A stretch of 38,669 nucleotides of DNA, taken from IMG/VR virus record IMGVR_UViG_3300044620_001899, positions 1-38,669 of that record. One strand, 5' to 3'. Source of the stretch: a virus. Position 1 is the first letter of the stretch; the number at the start of each line of letters is the position of its first letter. The translations under genes and the position numbers were made by a program. This document shows, in pieces, positions 1 to 38,669 of this stretch. The notes beneath the pieces are model-generated. The model was not told the DNA's origin and did not search any database. It saw only the letters and a list, made by a program, of their open reading frames with translations.

Positions 1-262
1 GGAAACCCCACTGCTTTAAGCAGCCATCCGCATTGGTGCGGCTTTTATATTTGCAACTGTTTATTTACGACACTTGTTACCCGTGTCGGGTATCTCCTTC
101 TTCATTACTCTGCGCCAATCGAAGCCAGTTCAGCCCCTTAGATGCCCCGCTGCAACGAGGACTTGTATCGCCATTACCAGAGGTTGCAGAAACTCTGGGT
201 TAGGCTAATGGAGCCGAGGGGAATCGAACCCGTGTCTTGTTCACATTTCAATCCGATATCAA
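1..262 (-). ncRNA. ssrA: Circularly permuted (two-piece) tmRNA, cut by the window edge
   Basis: On the minus strand the 3' acceptor piece (about 262 to 209) comes before the 5' coding piece (137 to beyond 1), the order of permuted tmRNA genes. The 5' end GGGGCTG (137-131) pairs over 7 bp with CGGCTCC (216-210), with the G3-U70 wobble that marks alanine tRNAs and tmRNAs; discriminator A is at 209 and CCA is not encoded. A T-loop TTCGATT lies in the acceptor piece; its stem has one C-C mismatch. The coding piece holds an H-type pseudoknot (69-91; ACCC/GGGT with GACAC/GTGTC) placed as PK1 is, then the tag reading frame. The 138-208 segment between the pieces folds into two hairpins (CCAGAG/CTCTGG and CCTCG/CGGGG) and should be cut out. 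The role is rescue of stalled ribosomes and tagging of unfinished proteins. The left end of the acceptor piece is approximate. Confidence 0.88.
16..54 (-). other. tmRNA tag reading frame (ANIKAAPMRMAA)
   Basis: The resume codon GCA lies at 54-52, 14 nt after the pseudoknot, as in bacterial tmRNAs. Twelve codons give ANIKAAPMRMAA and end at TAA (18-16). The terminal Ala-Ala after a hydrophobic residue fits the C-terminal signal recognised by ClpXP-type proteases. The stop codon lies in the loop of a CTGCT/AGCAG hairpin, matching the helix around the stop codon in known tmRNAs. Confidence 0.85.
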
Positions 263-273
263 CAATACCATTA

Positions 274-888
274 TTATTTATCTTCCTCAATGTCGTAATA
301 ATAATGATCATCCTCACCAGTCAAAATCCAACGGTCACTTTTATCTTCACATCTATAAATTTTATTATCAACTTTATAATCTGGATTTTTTGGAAATGGT
401 TTTGTGGTAAACGACATATGCTTCCAAAAAATTCTATTATTTGGTTGTAATGCATAATTACCATCATCAAGTTCAATCATATGTGAGCATTTATATTGAC
501 TGGGTTCATCGCTAAAAGGATTATCATACCAATCAAATGTCATCATGTAATTTCCCCAACAATGAGTTTTGTCTTTAAAAATTACTTTTGCTCTTGCGGG
601 TTTCAGATAATTGTACACCGTAACAGTAGCATTTATTGAAAAACAATCCCAAAGTTGAAGATAATCAAGAGGCTTTTCTTGAGATGGTTTGCTGCAAAGT
701 TTATGAACTGGAACTCTACTCCTTACAGTTCCATTATCCAGAAGAACTGTGAACAGAATTGCTCTGTCTGGATTTGATTGTGCCCCAAATACAGTAACCT
801 TTTCATATTCACCTTTAAATTTTTCATCTTGATAGAGGTGTTCTTTTCTCAAGAGACAATAAAAATATGGAATGTTTAAGTTGTACAT
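274..888 (-). CDS. Conserved phage protein of unknown function
   Basis: 204 residues starting MYNLNIPYF. A longer in-frame reading (ATG at 1011) would translate through tRNA-Tyr and is rejected. The ATG at 888 lies only 2 nt after the tRNA 3' end, with no ribosome binding site, so 3' maturation of the tRNA would release a nearly leaderless message. Sequence features include a central LDYLQLWDCFS segment, an aromatic-rich GNYMMTFDWYDN stretch and an acidic, tyrosine-rich end. Proteins of this look are common in marine T4-like phages, but I know no function. The stop codon is about 12 nt before the tmRNA acceptor piece, so leader RNA, tRNA, this gene and tmRNA probably share a transcript. Confidence 0.85.
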   Translation of the reverse strand: MYNLNIPYFYCLLRKEHLYQDEKFKGEYEKVTVFGAQSNPDRAILFTVLLDNGTVRSRVPVHKLCSKPSQEKPLDYLQLWDCFSINATVTVYNYLKPARAKVIFKDKTHCWGNYMMTFDWYDNPFSDEPSQYKCSHMIELDDGNYALQPNNRIFWKHMSFTTKPFPKNPDYKVDNKIYRCEDKSDRWILTGEDDHYYYDIEEDK

Positions 889-890
889 AA

Positions 891-972
891 TGCGAGCAGG
901 AGGATTCGAACCTTCGTAGGCTATGCCATCTGATTTACAGTCAGACCTCGTTGACCACTTGAGTATACTCGC
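891..972 (-). tRNA. tRNA-Tyr (GTA)
   Basis: 82 nt. The acceptor stem GCGAGTA/TGCTCGC has 7 pairs including one G-U, and discriminator A is at 891. The anticodon arm TCTGA-CTGTAAA-TCAGA carries GTA (938-936). It has the long variable arm of tyrosine tRNAs and a standard GGTTCGAATCC T arm. CCA is not encoded. Confidence 0.95.
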
Positions 973-19506: not shown

Positions 19507-19514
19507 TATTTATT
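19507..19514 (-). promoter_or_regulatory. T4-type late promoter (AATAAATA)
   Basis: Minus strand, overlapping the TAA stop of the protease gene (19512-19510). Predicted start near 19501, 7 nt before the ATG at 19494. Confidence 0.55.
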
Positions 19515-20307
19515 CTTCATACCAAGGCCAGTCACAGAACCTTTCTTTCATAATATTATCTATCCACTCGTAATAGTAACAAACTTTTATGCCTCCATTG
19601 TCTATTACATTCCCAGAAGATGGATCTACACCGAAGAATGATATGATTCCTGCCAATTTTCCAGAGTCTTCAAAAATTCCGCCACCAGAATCACCGTAGT
19701 AAACCGAGCCATTGAGTGCAAGCATTCTCATCACTTGGCCCCCATCTTCAATAAGAGAGCCGTAATAGCGCATTACACCCTTCTCGCTGACCTTTTTGTA
19801 GCCAAGGCTCCATCCAACAGTAATAACCTCTTCTCCGGGAATTAGATCCCACGGTATTTTTGAAAGTTCTGCTGGAGGTTCGTGACAATCTTCTTCTAAA
19901 ATGCAAAGAACAATATCGTTCATTGGAAACCCAGGAACATATGGGCTTGCCTTGTGCACCTTGCCAATTCTTAAAAATTGTCCTCCATGAGTCCAAAAAT
20001 ATTTTGGAGGATCCTCGGACAACGCAAAACAATGCTGTGCGCTTAGTATTGCGTTTCTGTGAATAAGAACTGCAGAACCAATTACATCACCCGATTGTGT
20101 AACTATAGCACCTACACAGGAGTAGCGGTCATCCTCAGCTAGTCCGATGGAATCGTACTTCGAAGAATCCAATAAGAATGCGGGGACTTCCGCTACTCCT
20201 TGTGTTTTTTCCTGTTCAGATTCAACTTGTTTTGGAGGAGACGATAGCGAATTGCAAGCAGTGCTTGTCGCCATCACGACTGCGAGGATTAATGCCCTCA
20301 GCAACAT
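19510..20307 (-). CDS. Trypsin-like serine protease, predicted lipoprotein
   Basis: 265 residues. A signal peptide (LLRALILAVVMATS) ends at a lipobox-like TSTAC with C18; the next residue is Asn, not Asp, which favours the outer membrane. The trypsin-fold triad is visible: H92 (ILSAQHCF), D131 (MNDIVLCIL) and S207 (YYGDSGGGIF). Four further Cys residues may form disulphides. A secreted trypsin-like protease is unusual in a T4-like phage; possible roles are lysis, surface change or exclusion of other phages (inference). It has a late promoter 8 nt upstream and lies just after the terminator of the replication operon. Confidence 0.85.
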   Translation of the reverse strand: MLLRALILAVVMATSTACNSLSSPPKQVESEQEKTQGVAEVPAFLLDSSKYDSIGLAEDDRYSCVGAIVTQSGDVIGSAVLIHRNAILSAQHCFALSEDPPKYFWTHGGQFLRIGKVHKASPYVPGFPMNDIVLCILEEDCHEPPAELSKIPWDLIPGEEVITVGWSLGYKKVSEKGVMRYYGSLIEDGGQVMRMLALNGSVYYGDSGGGIFEDSGKLAGIISFFGVDPSSGNVIDNGGIKVCYYYEWIDNIMKERFCDWPWYEE

Positions 20308-32465: not shown

Positions 32466-33395
32466 TTATTTGTAACAAAATATTGCGACATAACCATTTC
32501 CACCACGACCACCTGCACCAGAGTTAAATCCGCTAAAAGAAGCACCGCCGCCTCCTCCACCGCCACCTCTCCAACCACTTCCACCGTTTGTTGCTGCTTG
32601 TGTGGTTCCGGCTCCACCACCAGCACCGCCAATTCCTCCAGTGTATTTACCAAAAACAAAAATACCAGTTCCGTCTAAATCCGTAGATTGTGCTGCGTTT
32701 GATGAATTTCCTGTTCTTAAAATTGCTCCTAAAGCATAATCTGTATTACATACAACTAAACCTGAACCCAGAATAATGCTGCCTCCTCCGGGCGAAACAG
32801 TACCGAGGCCAGAAAATCCCGATCCTCCAGCCCCACCTTTTTGCCAAAAAAAAGAATATGTAGCATTGCTTCCACTTGTTAACGAAGTACCACTACCACC
32901 AGCACCCGCATTATTCGAAATAAATCCATTAAACATAGGTGAGCGACCAGCACCAGGGATACCGCCAACGGTGGTCCCGGCACCGCCTCCGGCGCCACCT
33001 GCAGCATATAATAAAAATCCAACTTTACCGGATAATGTTAATGTAGTTGCGCTTCCACCGATACCAGCTCCTCCATTTGTATTGTCAACTGTTCTTGCGA
33101 TAGCGCCATTCCCGCCAGCACCTATTGCTATTTCTAAAACTTTACCATCTAATTGCTCTCTCAAAAAAGTATGAACCATTGACGAACCCGATCCCCCTCC
33201 ACCACCACCAAAGCAAGTTTGAGCGGTTGTGGCTCTTCTTCTTCCGGAACCACCTCCACCACCAGCACCAATAGCAATAACTTGTATTAGTTTAGTTCCA
33301 TCTGGAATTGAGTAAGAACCACTGACATCAAATTCCTTGATGTCAATTAAGTTTGGATCAGTAATATTTGGAAAAGCAAAAATTCCTTGATTCAT
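32466..33395 (-). CDS. Glycine-rich adhesin-like protein 1
   Basis: 309 residues starting MNQGIFAF, with a conserved N-terminal EFDVSGSYSIPDGTK strand pair, then many poly-Gly runs separated by aromatic or polar loops, and a conserved end (GGxGGNGYVAIFCYK). Gly-rich segments of this kind form polyglycine type II bundles in the T-even-like adhesin gp38, which binds host receptors at the fibre tip. One of three tandem paralogues following the long tail fibre. Receptor binding is inference. Confidence 0.75.
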   Translation of the reverse strand: MNQGIFAFPNITDPNLIDIKEFDVSGSYSIPDGTKLIQVIAIGAGGGGGSGRRRATTAQTCFGGGGGGSGSSMVHTFLREQLDGKVLEIAIGAGGNGAIARTVDNTNGGAGIGGSATTLTLSGKVGFLLYAAGGAGGGAGTTVGGIPGAGRSPMFNGFISNNAGAGGSGTSLTSGSNATYSFFWQKGGAGGSGFSGLGTVSPGGGSIILGSGLVVCNTDYALGAILRTGNSSNAAQSTDLDGTGIFVFGKYTGGIGGAGGGAGTTQAATNGGSGWRGGGGGGGGASFSGFNSGAGGRGGNGYVAIFCYK

Positions 33396-33398
33396 GAT

Positions 33399-34364
33399 TC
33401 ATCCGTATGCGATAAGAACAACATATCCATTTCCGCCCGTACCACCAGCACCACCAGTCAAGCCATTTAAAGAACTTCCACCTCCGCCGCCGCCGCCACC
33501 TCTATATCCGTCTCTTCCAAGTCCACCAGCAGTTGATGCGCCGCCACCGCCGCCAACTCCGCCCATACCCGGAGAATACATTCCGCCTATAGTTCTTCCT
33601 AATGAAATATCACCGCCTCCAGGAGTATTTGGTTGTCCGGGTTGTATTGCATTATTTCCAGCAGTATATCTTGGGCTATAATACGAAGTATAATTACCAC
33701 CCGCAGTAATTGCTCCTCCACTACTTGCTGTATCCGATATATTTAAGCCACCTCCGCCAGCCCCACCGTTTGAAAAATAATTCCATAGGCCATCATTTGT
33801 TGGATTGTTTGTTCCGCCGGGTCCTTGTGGAAAATTTGTAGGAGAACCATCGCCTCCCTTACCGCTAGTTATATTATTTCCAAACCAATAATTTGAACTA
33901 ACTGGCCCACCAATGCCAGCAACTCCAGCAGTTAAACCACCGCCAATACCACCTGCACCACCGGGAATATTCATAAAAGTTCCAAGTGATCCGCTAATTG
34001 TAATTGTGGTAGTTCCTCCCGCAATTCCATTGTTGCCCGCAGTAGAATTTACTGTTTGTTCTCCTCCTCCTCCACCACCAGCCCCAATATTGACATTTAA
34101 AATTGTTCCCGGAGGTGCTATAAAATCAATTGGAAAATCATCACACGCCATTCTTCCCGGACCACCACCTCCACCACCTCTATTACTTGATCCAGAAGGA
34201 TATCTACCACCTCCACCCCCTCCTCCACCTCCACCTATACCAAGCACATAAAGTCTTTTGGCAAAAGTTGGAATTACAAAAGTTCCACTAACATCAAATT
34301 CTTTTACCAAGATCTTGGTGTTATCTAGTATATTATTTGAAAATCCAAAAAATCCTTGATTCAT
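33399..34364 (-). CDS. Glycine-rich adhesin-like protein 2
   Basis: 321 residues, starting MNQGFFGFSNN. Same plan as its neighbours: EFDVSGTFVIPTFAKRLYVLGIGGGG, poly-Gly runs, variable loops and the end GGTGGNGYVVLIAYG. It lies 3 nt after the third paralogue and 3 nt before the first. The loops between Gly runs differ strongly between the paralogues while both ends are conserved. Confidence 0.75.
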   Translation of the reverse strand: MNQGFFGFSNNILDNTKILVKEFDVSGTFVIPTFAKRLYVLGIGGGGGGGGGGRYPSGSSNRGGGGGGPGRMACDDFPIDFIAPPGTILNVNIGAGGGGGGEQTVNSTAGNNGIAGGTTTITISGSLGTFMNIPGGAGGIGGGLTAGVAGIGGPVSSNYWFGNNITSGKGGDGSPTNFPQGPGGTNNPTNDGLWNYFSNGGAGGGGLNISDTASSGGAITAGGNYTSYYSPRYTAGNNAIQPGQPNTPGGGDISLGRTIGGMYSPGMGGVGGGGGASTAGGLGRDGYRGGGGGGGGSSLNGLTGGAGGTGGNGYVVLIAYG

Positions 34365-34367
34365 ATA

Positions 34368-35357
34368 TTATCCGTAGGCAATAATTACACAATACCCGTT
34401 TCCGCCTGAACCACCATTTCCGGCAGTAATACCATTATTTGAACCTCCACCACCACCTCCACCACCACCTCTCCAACCATTTGTTCCATTGTTTGCACTA
34501 GTAGAAGATCCTCCGCCACCACCAACTCCGCCCAAACCGGGAGTATAAGGTCCAGCAACTGTCAATTGCTCTGATTCTTGTGAAGTTGCAGTATTTGTTG
34601 CACCACCAGCTTTAACAGTTGCATTTCTAGCATAATTTGGGTTTGTAATAGCAGATAACGTTGTTGAATTGGGTCCAATAAATCCCAAACCACCAATTGC
34701 TGTAACATTATTAACGCCACCTCCACCTTGTCCTCCAGTTGTAGTAAATTGTTGAACTGGCGTATTTCCTGTAAGAGATATAATACCGTTAGTTCCGGAG
34801 GTTTGATATGTAGTTGGATATGGTGCACCATTAAACATTACTGATTGTCCCGATCCAGCACTTCCGGTACTGTTTGATCCTCCGCCTCCGGAATTCCCTC
34901 CACTAGAATACATCATAAAACCTGGCATACCTGTTGGTGCTATTGTAGAGGCACCACCGGGACTTCCTGCACTACCATTTGTAGAATCTGCAGTTGATCC
35001 TGCTCCTCCGCCTCCGCCAGCACCAATGACAATATTTAAAATTCTACCAGATGTTGCTGGTGTTTGTCCTGCATTTGCCGCTGCTGTTGCTTCTGCTGAA
35101 CCTCCAATTGATTCTACAAAAAAATATCCCAGATTTATTGTACCGCCTGCACCGCCGCCGCCACCATATGCGGCATTTCCGGAACCTATTATATTTCTTC
35201 TTCCCCCGCCCCCTCCGCCACCGCCACCAATTAACATAATAGATAAGCGTTTTGCACCGTTTGGAATTACATAACTTCCACTAGTGTCAAACTCTTTTAC
35301 TTCAATTACTGAAGTGCCATAATTAGAAGCAGGAAATCCATACAAACCATTATTCAT
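34368..35357 (-). CDS. Glycine-rich adhesin-like protein 3
   Basis: 329 residues, starting MNNGLYGFPAS, with EFDTSGSYVIPNGAKRLSIMLIGGGG, poly-Gly runs and the end GGSGGNGYCVIIAYG. First of the three paralogues in transcription order. It overlaps the upstream 137-residue gene by 4 nt. Confidence 0.75.
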   Translation of the reverse strand: MNNGLYGFPASNYGTSVIEVKEFDTSGSYVIPNGAKRLSIMLIGGGGGGGGGRRNIIGSGNAAYGGGGGAGGTINLGYFFVESIGGSAEATAAANAGQTPATSGRILNIVIGAGGGGGAGSTADSTNGSAGSPGGASTIAPTGMPGFMMYSSGGNSGGGGSNSTGSAGSGQSVMFNGAPYPTTYQTSGTNGIISLTGNTPVQQFTTTGGQGGGGVNNVTAIGGLGFIGPNSTTLSAITNPNYARNATVKAGGATNTATSQESEQLTVAGPYTPGLGGVGGGGGSSTSANNGTNGWRGGGGGGGGGSNNGITAGNGGSGGNGYCVIIAYG

Positions 35358-35782: not shown

Positions 35783-35790
35783 TATTTATT
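35783..35790 (-). promoter_or_regulatory. T4-type late promoter (AATAAATA)
   Basis: 15 nt before the ATG at 35767, leaving room for an AAGGA binding site. It overlaps the stop codon of the tail fibre gene. Confidence 0.6.
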
Positions 35791-38669
35791 ATACGATTCC
35801 CATGTTAAAAAGCATAAAATTAATTGCTGGTAATATAACATCTCCTGTAAGTCCCTGTACAGAAGTTACAGATCCTCCTCCCGCTGGAGTTGCCCAAGTA
35901 ATTCCGCTCCCAGTAGAAGTTAAAACTTGATTATTAGAACCTTGTGTTCCATTTATCAATAAAGTATTCGTAAGATTTACAGGTCCACTAAAAGTTGCAC
36001 CTGAAGCACTGATTCCCGCAGTGAATCTTGTGAGTGCGCTAAAGGTTCCTCCTGCGCTGCTAATTCCTGCACTCGCAAAAATATTTGTTCCGAAGATATT
36101 TACTGAATATAAATTGGTAATGTTTTCAATAAGATAAAAATTATTAATATTGCTCCCGTTTCCATGCAAAGTCCCTTCAGGAGCGCTATAATAAATATAT
36201 GCACCAGTGTCAATTGTATATGGATCGCCTATTTCTATTATACCGTAAGGATTTGCCAACTGAAGTTGGTAGGTGGGATCTCTCAAATATATGAGAGTGC
36301 TATTGTTGTTTCCACTATAATCACCAATTGAAACTCTGGCATTGGATGTGTCTTCAAGATACAATTGCGTGTCGGACACGATAGATGTAACATTCAGAGT
36401 ATTTGCGGAGTTTATAGTAACATTTGAATTAAATGTGATACCACCAGCAGCAGAGATACCTGCATTGAACGATGTATTACTATTAAAAGTTGAAGTGGCA
36501 TTAGATATAAATCCACCACTATTTGGAATAACAACGTTTGCTCCGGCAACTCCGCCTAAAGTAACTCCACCCAAAATTGAAACTCTACTTAAACTGTTTG
36601 CGCTACCAATATTAATAGTAGAATTAGCACCCCCAGAAATATTTGTTCCTAAATTTATATTTTTAGAACCACTAAAAGTTGTTGCAGTTCCAATATTTAA
36701 AGTAAATCCAGAAGACTGTGTATTTAAAATATCAAGTGTTGTGGCGTTTGCATTAAACAATGAAGCAGAAGTCGAAGTGGTAGTGATGTCTCCACCATTC
36801 ACTGCAATATCACCACTAAAAGTTGCACCAGCAGCACTAATCCCCGCAGTGAATCTTGTGAGTGCGCTGAAAGTTCCTCCCGCTGAACTTATACCAGCAT
36901 TGAAGTTTGCCAAAGAACTAAAGGTATTTGTTCCTGTAAAAGTTTGAGTACCTGAAAGACCTGCGAGGGTTGTTGTGTAATTTGGAAGTGTTACAGTTGT
37001 TGTTACTAAAGTGGCTGGATTAAACTGCAATGTCTGTGGGGCATTGGTCATATCAGATACAATAATACCAACACCCGGCTCTAATTTAAACCCACTGGCA
37101 CTTCCAATTATTTCTAAAAATGCACCACCGGCATCTATAGTTTGAGAAGCACTAAAATTATTATCTACGTTAGTTTTAGCAACATTCGTAATTGCACCAG
37201 TAGAACCATTTACACTCAGTACTCCAGTATTCGAAACCGTCAGAGTGTTTCCGGAGACAGACAGACCGATTCCAGAGCCATTAGTGATACCGACAGCACC
37301 AGTGATACCACGAACACTATTAACAATATTTGGGGCAGATATATTTCCACTAAAAGTTGCACCAGAAGCACTAATTCCCGCATTAAAGTTTGTCAGGGCA
37401 TTAAATGTCTTTGTTCCACCAAATGTTTGAGTTCCAGAAAGACCTGCAAGAGTTGTTGTAATATTCGGTAGAGTTACAACTTGACCTTGAGGATTAAAAT
37501 CAAGAGTTGATTGATTTAATCCATTTCTCCATATAATATCATTAGCAACCGGATCAATCGTAACGCCCGCGCTATTTAAAGTGTCATCAATGCCAAATAC
37601 TGCTCCAGATGCAGAAATTGTTTGTGGGGCACTAAAATTATTATTAACATTTGTTCTAGCAACATTCGTAATTGCGCCAGTAGACCCATCAATACTCAAC
37701 ACACCAGTATTTGAAACAGTCAGGGTGTTTCCGGAGACAGACAGACCTATTCCAGAGCCATTAGTGATACCGACAGCACCAGTGAGACCGCGCAGAGAAC
37801 TTACAAGCGGTAAACTTGTAACGCTTAAATTTTCCCATCCAGTAACACCATCAACGTAAGTCAATACTTGGTAATTCTGTGGAGATGTTATAATAACATC
37901 AGTCAAGTCATCCAATGTTAGAGATACAGATCCTCCACCACTTGTGGTGCTTCTAAAGTTTCCTGCTTGCAATATAAGTGCATCAGAAGTATTTGTAAGA
38001 TCGGTGGCACCGCTTTTTACCAACAAATAAGCAACAAATATTGCATTTGTTTTTGTATTTTCAATTTCTGTAAAGTTTTCAAAGTTTATATTTGCAGCAG
38101 CATCTGCCAAACTTGTATATTCTCCACGACCATAATAGACTCCCAGAAGAGTTGGCGTGTTTGGATAATAGAATATTCTTTGAATGGTATATTTTCCACC
38201 AGGAACCGTTGCCAAGGTTCCTGTACCATCATCATATTTTGTTGGATCTATTGCAGTTTGGTTTGGAACTGTTATAAAAGTTCCTGCTGTTGCTCCACGG
38301 TAGTAACGATAAAAAATACAATCTGTTTGGGCTGGATCCGATACAACGCTTGGATTGTCGGTATCATTGATCCAGTTTCTTCCAAGACTAAATGCCGTTC
38401 CTGAAGTCCTGTTAAGTTTTAAATTTGCACCATTTGGTGAAATGGTGTGTCCAGAGACTTTAATTGGACCGAAAGAACGAATGAACTGCTCGTATTGCTT
38501 ATCTGTTGCGTATGCAACGTTTGGATTTGTTCTTGCAAGATTGATGAATGTTCTTGAAGGGTGTACGAGCTGGCCAATAATAATAGTTTCTTCTAACTGT
38601 TCGTCAGTGTAGTAAGTTGGTCTCTGCTGGATAATACCAGCAGAGTCCACATAAATCCAAGTAGTATCA
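35789..38669 (-). CDS. Long tail fibre protein, 5' end outside the window
   Basis: At least 959 residues. The frame stays open to the window edge: the GTG at 38650 is preceded in frame by DTTWIY, so it is a normal valine codon and the real start lies outside. The N-terminal part (about 1-250 of the visible sequence) has DSAGIIQQRPTYYTDEQ, typical of phage fibre N-terminal regions. Then come modules with GLTGAVGITNGSGIGLSVSGNTL and many short blocks of the type FNAGISASGATFSG, which should form a long beta-helical shaft. The C-terminus repeats the start of the module (SVQGLTGDVILP). No chaperone domain is seen. The three glycine-rich proteins encoded downstream may form its tip. Confidence 0.85.
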   Translation of the reverse strand, partial: DTTWIYVDSAGIIQQRPTYYTDEQLEETIIIGQLVHPSRTFINLARTNPNVAYATDKQYEQFIRSFGPIKVSGHTISPNGANLKLNRTSGTAFSLGRNWINDTDNPSVVSDPAQTDCIFYRYYRGATAGTFITVPNQTAIDPTKYDDGTGTLATVPGGKYTIQRIFYYPNTPTLLGVYYGRGEYTSLADAAANINFENFTEIENTKTNAIFVAYLLVKSGATDLTNTSDALILQAGNFRSTTSGGGSVSLTLDDLTDVIITSPQNYQVLTYVDGVTGWENLSVTSLPLVSSLRGLTGAVGITNGSGIGLSVSGNTLTVSNTGVLSIDGSTGAITNVARTNVNNNFSAPQTISASGAVFGIDDTLNSAGVTIDPVANDIIWRNGLNQSTLDFNPQGQVVTLPNITTTLAGLSGTQTFGGTKTFNALTNFNAGISASGATFSGNISAPNIVNSVRGITGAVGITNGSGIGLSVSGNTLTVSNTGVLSVNGSTGAITNVAKTNVDNNFSASQTIDAGGAFLEIIGSASGFKLEPGVGIIVSDMTNAPQTLQFNPATLVTTTVTLPNYTTTLAGLSGTQTFTGTNTFSSLANFNAGISSAGGTFSALTRFTAGISAAGATFSGDIAVNGGDITTTSTSASLFNANATTLDILNTQSSGFTLNIGTATTFSGSKNINLGTNISGGANSTINIGSANSLSRVSILGGVTLGGVAGANVVIPNSGGFISNATSTFNSNTSFNAGISAAGGITFNSNVTINSANTLNVTSIVSDTQLYLEDTSNARVSIGDYSGNNNSTLIYLRDPTYQLQLANPYGIIEIGDPYTIDTGAYIYYSAPEGTLHGNGSNINNFYLIENITNLYSVNIFGTNIFASAGISSAGGTFSALTRFTAGISASGATFSGPVNLTNTLLINGTQGSNNQVLTSTGSGITWATPAGGGSVTSVQGLTGDVILPAINFMLFNMGIV
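37184..37306. repeat. Tail fibre module repeat, copy 2
   Basis: Nearly identical to 37667-37789, offset 483 bp (161 codons), in frame. It encodes GAVGITNGSGIGLSVSGNTLTVSNTG and flanks. Confidence 0.85.
37667..37789. repeat. Tail fibre module repeat, copy 1
   Basis: Counterpart of 37184-37306. The shared core GTGTTTCCGGAGACAGACAG is identical in both copies. Confidence 0.85.

Follow-up and report, generated by a model that had tools for sequence, protein, structure and literature searches.

A circularly permuted tmRNA gene in a family of uncultured T4-like phages, with a probable eight-residue tag and unrelated intervening segments

Does a T4-like phage carry its own tmRNA gene, split into two pieces, and which peptide would such a gene add to stalled proteins? 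The question arises at one end of IMGVR_UViG_3300044620_001899, a linear IMG/VR contig of 38,669 bases, hereafter the window. An earlier note had proposed a phage-borne, circularly permuted tmRNA at positions 1–262. With cmscan, the Rfam model of permuted tmRNAs (RF04321, tmRNA_permuted) matches the minus strand from 269 to 16 with 68.5 bits (E 2.8e-11) for a cut-off of 47, and this match agrees with the covariation presented below: window 269–16 is a circularly permuted, two-piece tmRNA gene, a phage ssrA, whose actual end lies at 269 and not at 262. RF04321 recognises the gene above its cut-off; the old alpha, beta and cyanobacterial subtype models (RF01849–RF01851), which that note had named, all stayed below theirs, the best being the beta model, with 32.8 bits against 84 in the window and at most 57.3 bits among relatives (L003).

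The T4-like assignment is borne out by a gp43-type polymerase, a replicative helicase and UvsX, all encoded on the window contig. The gp43 is at most ~41% identical to those of isolate phages and 74–99% identical to those of a large uncultured clade; the 117-kb contig L007 carries a gp43 99% identical to that of the window. The parts of the locus, in the order of transcription, are the following.

891–972, minus strand: tRNA-Tyr (GUA), upstream of the tmRNA and co-oriented with it (ARAGORN and Rfam)
274–891, minus strand: ORF of PHROG 3704 (annotated ferredoxin, host-takeover category), between the tRNA-Tyr and the tmRNA
209–269, minus strand: acceptor piece (RF04321 match; covariation of P2, T stem and acceptor stem)
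269–265, 245–242 and 239–237, minus strand: 5' strands of P2 in the acceptor piece (covariation)
233–217, minus strand: T arm, with the T-loop UUCGAUU
216–210, minus strand: 3' strand of the acceptor stem, CGGCUCC (covariation)
209, minus strand: discriminator A73
138–208, minus strand: intervening segment (IVS) of 71 nt, type a (covariation in 34 sequences; minimum-energy fold)
16–137, minus strand: coding piece, with the 5' strand of the acceptor stem, D-loop region, 3' strands of P2, PK1, spacer, tag and stop
137–131, minus strand: 5' strand of the acceptor stem, GGGGCUG, forming 7 pairs with CGGCUCC (216–210), G3-U70 included
118–116, 114–111 and 93–89, minus strand: 3' strands of P2 in the coding piece (covariation)
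53–88, minus strand: PK1 pseudoknot, with S1 CGACAC/GUGUCG (88–83/73–68) and S2 GUAAC/GUUGC (80–76/57–53)
43–52, minus strand: A-rich spacer between PK1 and the resume codon, 10 nt in the window
16–42, minus strand: tag reading frame GCC GCA CCA AUG CGG AUG GCU GCU UAA, read AAPMRMAA, with the stop at 18–16
11–23, minus strand: P5-like hairpin CUGCU-UAA-AGCAG, whose loop contains the stop codon (covariation in L011, L031 and L085)

The acceptor piece with its T-loop thus lies upstream of the coding piece (269–209, then 137–16), and the two are joined by a 7-bp acceptor stem bearing the alanine identity pair G3-U70, as had been described from the first reading. That reading also expected a pairing partner beyond base 1; in fact the acceptor 3' strand pairs with 137–131, inside the window, and just past the position matching window base 1 only a terminator is seen in relatives. 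In the window's clade the gene does not encode CCA; the window has AUUA at this place. Many relatives likewise have the tRNA-Tyr upstream of the tmRNA, and the stop codon of the PHROG 3704 ORF stands ~5 nt ahead of the acceptor piece. A terminator-like hairpin followed by a T run comes soon after the P5 hairpin; it is seen in relatives only, the window ending 15 nt past the tmRNA stop.

Several features of the contig are reported as observations in their own right. Over a part of its length, the PHROG 3704 ORF (274–891) is 69.5% identical in DNA to Flavobacterium phage immuto. At 19510–20307 this T4-like phage encodes a trypsin-like protease whose N-terminus is signal- or lipoprotein-like. Three successive glycine-rich proteins of ~310–330 aa each (32466–35357) are adjoined by a repetitive, tail-fibre-like protein (35789–38668).

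Relatives were collected by exact-pattern scans of IMG/VR, whose result sets overlap heavily: 74 contigs carry the PK1 core, 44 the type a IVS core, 9 the type b IVS core and 76 the acceptor-piece motif, counts that understate divergent members and overstate the uniformity of the seeded segments, because the patterns were seeded on the clade's own motifs. Overall 84 relative genes were parsed. Of the 23 relatives scanned with ARAGORN, 13 received a permuted tmRNA* call, and RF04321 is found in 15 of 22 records examined, which include contigs picked for carrying the gene. Beside this family, we note in viral contigs of other clades tmRNA-like genes of the permuted type with CCA encoded (L004 3738–3850, L005 12204–12295, L008 2297–2413).

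Across 34 aligned genes, 96.6% of the cells of the proposed fold are paired, against 90.2% after shuffling and 45% at most with slid partners; 34 of the 68 pairs show compensatory double changes, a number matched by none of 500 shuffles. The slid control carries more weight than the shuffle test, since kinship among the sequences inflates the latter. In P2, which joins the two pieces, the double changes reach all seven pairs of the main helix and two of the five in the other helix; in the acceptor stem, compensatory changes are seen at three of seven pairs, and the 72 genes of the first parsed set hold 10 different acceptor-stem sequences while all keep G3-U70 and A73. S1 of PK1 shows double changes in L079, L080 and L085. 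S2 varies little within the clade; its support comes from a C-G in place of U-G in the L079 group and from ACAACC/GGUUGU in the outgroups L095 and L097. Altogether, these comparisons lend support to the acceptor stem with G3-U70, to P2, to PK1 and to the P5 hairpin.

The tag of the window is most likely AAPMRMAA, eight residues encoded by bases 42–19, with GCC (42–40) as resume codon. Counted back from the stop, the tag has exactly eight codons in all 84 parsed relatives, starting with GCN and ending with Ala-Ala-stop (GCNGCN-stop); AAPMRMAA occurs in 27 of these genes, ANQLAMAA in 11 and ANELAMAA in 10, beside others. The indels of the region are confined to the spacer upstream of the tag, which measures 10–11 nt from S2 of PK1 to the resume codon in the family and 14 nt in L095 and L097; behind their unambiguous PK1, these two outgroups read ANNYALAA and ANNFALAA respectively. 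Ahead of the resume codon, 54 of 62 distinct genes have U at -5, and 48 have A at -4. These bases resemble the signals that set the frame in E. coli tmRNA, whose spacer is 11 nt, whose A run tolerates changes in length and whose frame is fixed by A at -4 (PMC2481249). In many relatives a hairpin can also form over the first codons of the tag, and the conservation of its first GC could be partly structural; in the window class, however, this hairpin takes another register that leaves the G of this GC unpaired, so that it fails to account for the conservation there, as judged by inspection of the sequence. A resume codon shifted by +1 between the GCA-frame and CAA-frame classes was considered and dropped, since S2 of PK1 and the outgroups L095 and L097 place the indel in the spacer.

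The first reading had been right about the presence of a PK1-like pseudoknot and of a tag frame, but it misplaced the start of the tag, at GCA 54–52, and so obtained the 12-residue ANIKAAPMRMAA. This longer tag is very unlikely to be the real one, although several observations speak for it: an A at -4 is present here too (ACAGUU ahead of GCA), the RF04321 alignment of the window sets the tag at GCA, and ARAGORN prints ANIKAAPMRMAA for L007 and L035. The GCA frame is itself open in the window, and the two possible starts lie in one and the same frame in 32 of 60 distinct relatives, so that the eight-residue reading depends on the remaining ones. In these 28, one extra base just downstream puts GCA out of frame, and a start there would yield AKNNC*, ANHDC* or a readthrough without the Ala-Ala end; for six of them ARAGORN itself prints eight-residue tags. 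Moreover the GCA overlaps the end of the S2 strand of PK1, its GC being part of that stem, the first four codons of the longer reading cover the end of PK1 and the spacer, and the outgroups L095 and L097 have GUUGU, without GCA, at this site. The correction matters for annotation: in some members, ARAGORN and the Rfam alignment start the tag too early.

Whether the gene belongs to the phage, and whether it still works in tagging, are two further points. Many alpha-, beta- and cyanobacterial hosts normally have a permuted ssrA, which speaks for a bacterial gene in a contig that was wrongly assembled or classified. We regard this origin as extremely improbable: the contig is T4-like, viral contigs as long as 147 kb also carry members of the family, and pattern scans of bacterial genomes for the PK1 and type a IVS patterns returned no match. 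A decaying or decoy tmRNA, which would no longer tag proteins and might for example titrate SmpB, finds some ground in the window itself, whose T stem (ACGGG/CCCCU) has a C-C mismatch at 232/218 and forms four of five pairs, the other parsed genes forming five of five. This mismatch is the likely reason why ARAGORN misses the window copy, as it finds the gene of L007 even cut at the same point; the window copy may be impaired, or the mismatch may be an assembly error. Some related phages also do without the gene, no tmRNA match being found in the related 135,768-base record G019, and a precedent for an inhibitor is reported in phage DS6A, whose tmRNA, reduced to the tRNA-like domain, was proposed to titrate SmpB (PMC4131195). 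We nevertheless give little credit to decay or decoy: across 84 relatives the tag, the stop, PK1 and every stem persist, with compensatory changes, and the T stem is perfect (AGGGG/CCCCU) on L007, whose gp43 is 99% identical to that of the window.

From sequence comparison, we consider very probable that the gene is a permuted phage ssrA carrying the eight-codon tag AAPMRMAA, whose RNA, processed by the host into two pieces, would rescue ribosomes. The steps of processing, charging and tagging are proposed by analogy, because they are known so for bacterial tmRNA. One transcript would comprise the tRNA-Tyr, the ORF, the tmRNA and the terminator; the host RNase P would cut 5' of base 137, host 3' nucleases would trim after A73, the IVS would be removed and CCA would be supplied by the host enzyme. 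AlaRS would then charge the two-piece RNA which, with the SmpB of the host (none was found in 19 phage contigs), would rescue stalled ribosomes and add Ala plus AAPMRMAA to their products. The -MAA end of the tag resembles tags recognised by proteases; as the earlier note proposed, the tag may direct stalled proteins to host proteases under the phage's own control. The likely benefit during infection would be to keep ribosomes free and to clear truncated proteins as host transcripts are degraded.

Between the two pieces the family holds unrelated kinds of IVS: type a of 71–99 nt, type b of 122–173 nt and type c of 5–6 nt. Type a combines two hairpins with a short GCC/GGC helix and a loop-loop pairing of 4–6 bp, and has conserved unpaired residues. 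In the window its elements are:

205–203/172–170, minus strand: short helix GCC/GGC (double changes at one pair)
198–193/182–177, minus strand: hairpin 1 (double changes at six of six pairs)
160–156/149–145, minus strand: hairpin 2 (covariation model; also in the minimum-energy fold)
189–184/155–150, minus strand: loop-loop pairing CUGCAA/UUGCAG (double changes at one pair)

When the window IVS is folded freely, the two hairpins and the GCC/GGC helix reappear, at a z-score of -1.5, which is modest; the values are -3.0 for L012 and -2.9 for L046, and in L085 the free fold differs from the model. Many type a copies have a third hairpin (e.g. L012 12924–13018, minus strand), absent from the window, whose loop carries a 6-nt palindrome: CCUAGG in most cases, GCUAGC in L085, CCCGGG in L020. 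Such a loop suggests a loop-loop dimerisation of the RNA. Type b, found at L018, L030, L046, L055, L062, L073, L078, L091 and L092, is predicted as a multi-branched RNA closed by GGUUAG/CUAACC. In type c the whole IVS is reduced to 5–6 nt (UUCAC, CUUUAC), at L009 35–235 (minus strand) and 15 other loci, so that a tiny loop caps the acceptor stem of the precursor. Since type c exists, the fold appears dispensable for the persistence of the gene.

Of 111 flanking mature positions, 3 separate L030, of type b, from L049, of type a, while their IVSs are unrelated; such near-identical flanks indicate that cassettes have been exchanged. All 44 viral contigs with the type a core pattern carry it inside the permuted tmRNA gene only. 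Neither type a nor type b matches an Rfam family, and a search for Rfam ribozymes and riboswitches with E up to 10 in one IVS of each of these types returned none. By eye, GCCUAA, CAAGUCC and GGGGC give type a a look of twister, an identity rejected when cmscan in a tiny search space found no ribozyme. As a tentative and rather doubtful proposal, types a and b might be undescribed classes of functional RNA (self-cleaving ribozyme, ligand switch or released small RNA) that control or exploit the maturation of the tmRNA. We infer this possibility from the conserved unpaired residues, the loop-loop pairing and the compensatory changes of type a, from its single gene position in 44 contigs and from the swapping of cassettes between near-identical flanks. 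These swappable folded inserts offer a concrete and testable place in which to seek new RNA classes.

How does this gene compare with known systems? The earlier note knew of no permuted tmRNA in a T4-like phage, but one was already published in 2022: the two-piece tmRNA of Melnitz, a T4-like phage of Methylophilales, was described along with 53 putative two-piece tmRNAs from phage genomes, of which 50 are marine or aquatic (PMC9004378). Like the present family, Melnitz and the related marine myophages are T4-like myophages from water whose ssrA has the permuted, two-piece form (PMC9004378). A glutamine riboswitch is predicted with the ssrA of Melnitz, whereas cmscan gave no glnA match in nine relatives and at the window end, which stops 15 nt past the stop codon. 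The present family further differs from Melnitz by its eight-residue tag, by a CCA unencoded in the window's clade and by its unrelated IVS cassettes. In isolate phages, a nucleotide search gave matches of the size of a T arm only.

With the bacterial permuted tmRNAs (RF04321, RF01849 alpha, RF01850 beta and RF01851 cyano), the family shares the order of the pieces, the G3-U70 stem, a T arm (mismatched at one pair in the window), P2, PK1 and a tag running from Ala to Ala-Ala; its genes, however, score below the old subtype cut-offs and the fold of its IVS matches nothing in Rfam. Earlier phage tmRNAs are those of the mycobacteriophage Bxz1 group, Bacillus phage G and DS6A (PMC4131195); they are phage-borne too, but outside the T4-like phages, and that of DS6A has little beyond the tRNA-like domain. 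With 97,179 sequences, the tmRNA database of 2025 includes 79 from phages, and a tRNA-Ala gene or a repetitive element is reported as cargo in the IVS of other permuted genes (PMC11915505). Extra elements in the IVS are thus common to both, but here they are conserved folded modules, present in many phages and swapped between near-identical flanks. The kind of gene is already known; what appears new, by comparison of sequences and, for the 2025 database (PMC11915505), by its description only, is the family, through its set of tags, its unencoded CCA and its IVS cassettes. With it, an uncultured family of T4-like phages, with a distinct eight-residue tag, would join the carriers of their own ribosome-rescue RNA.
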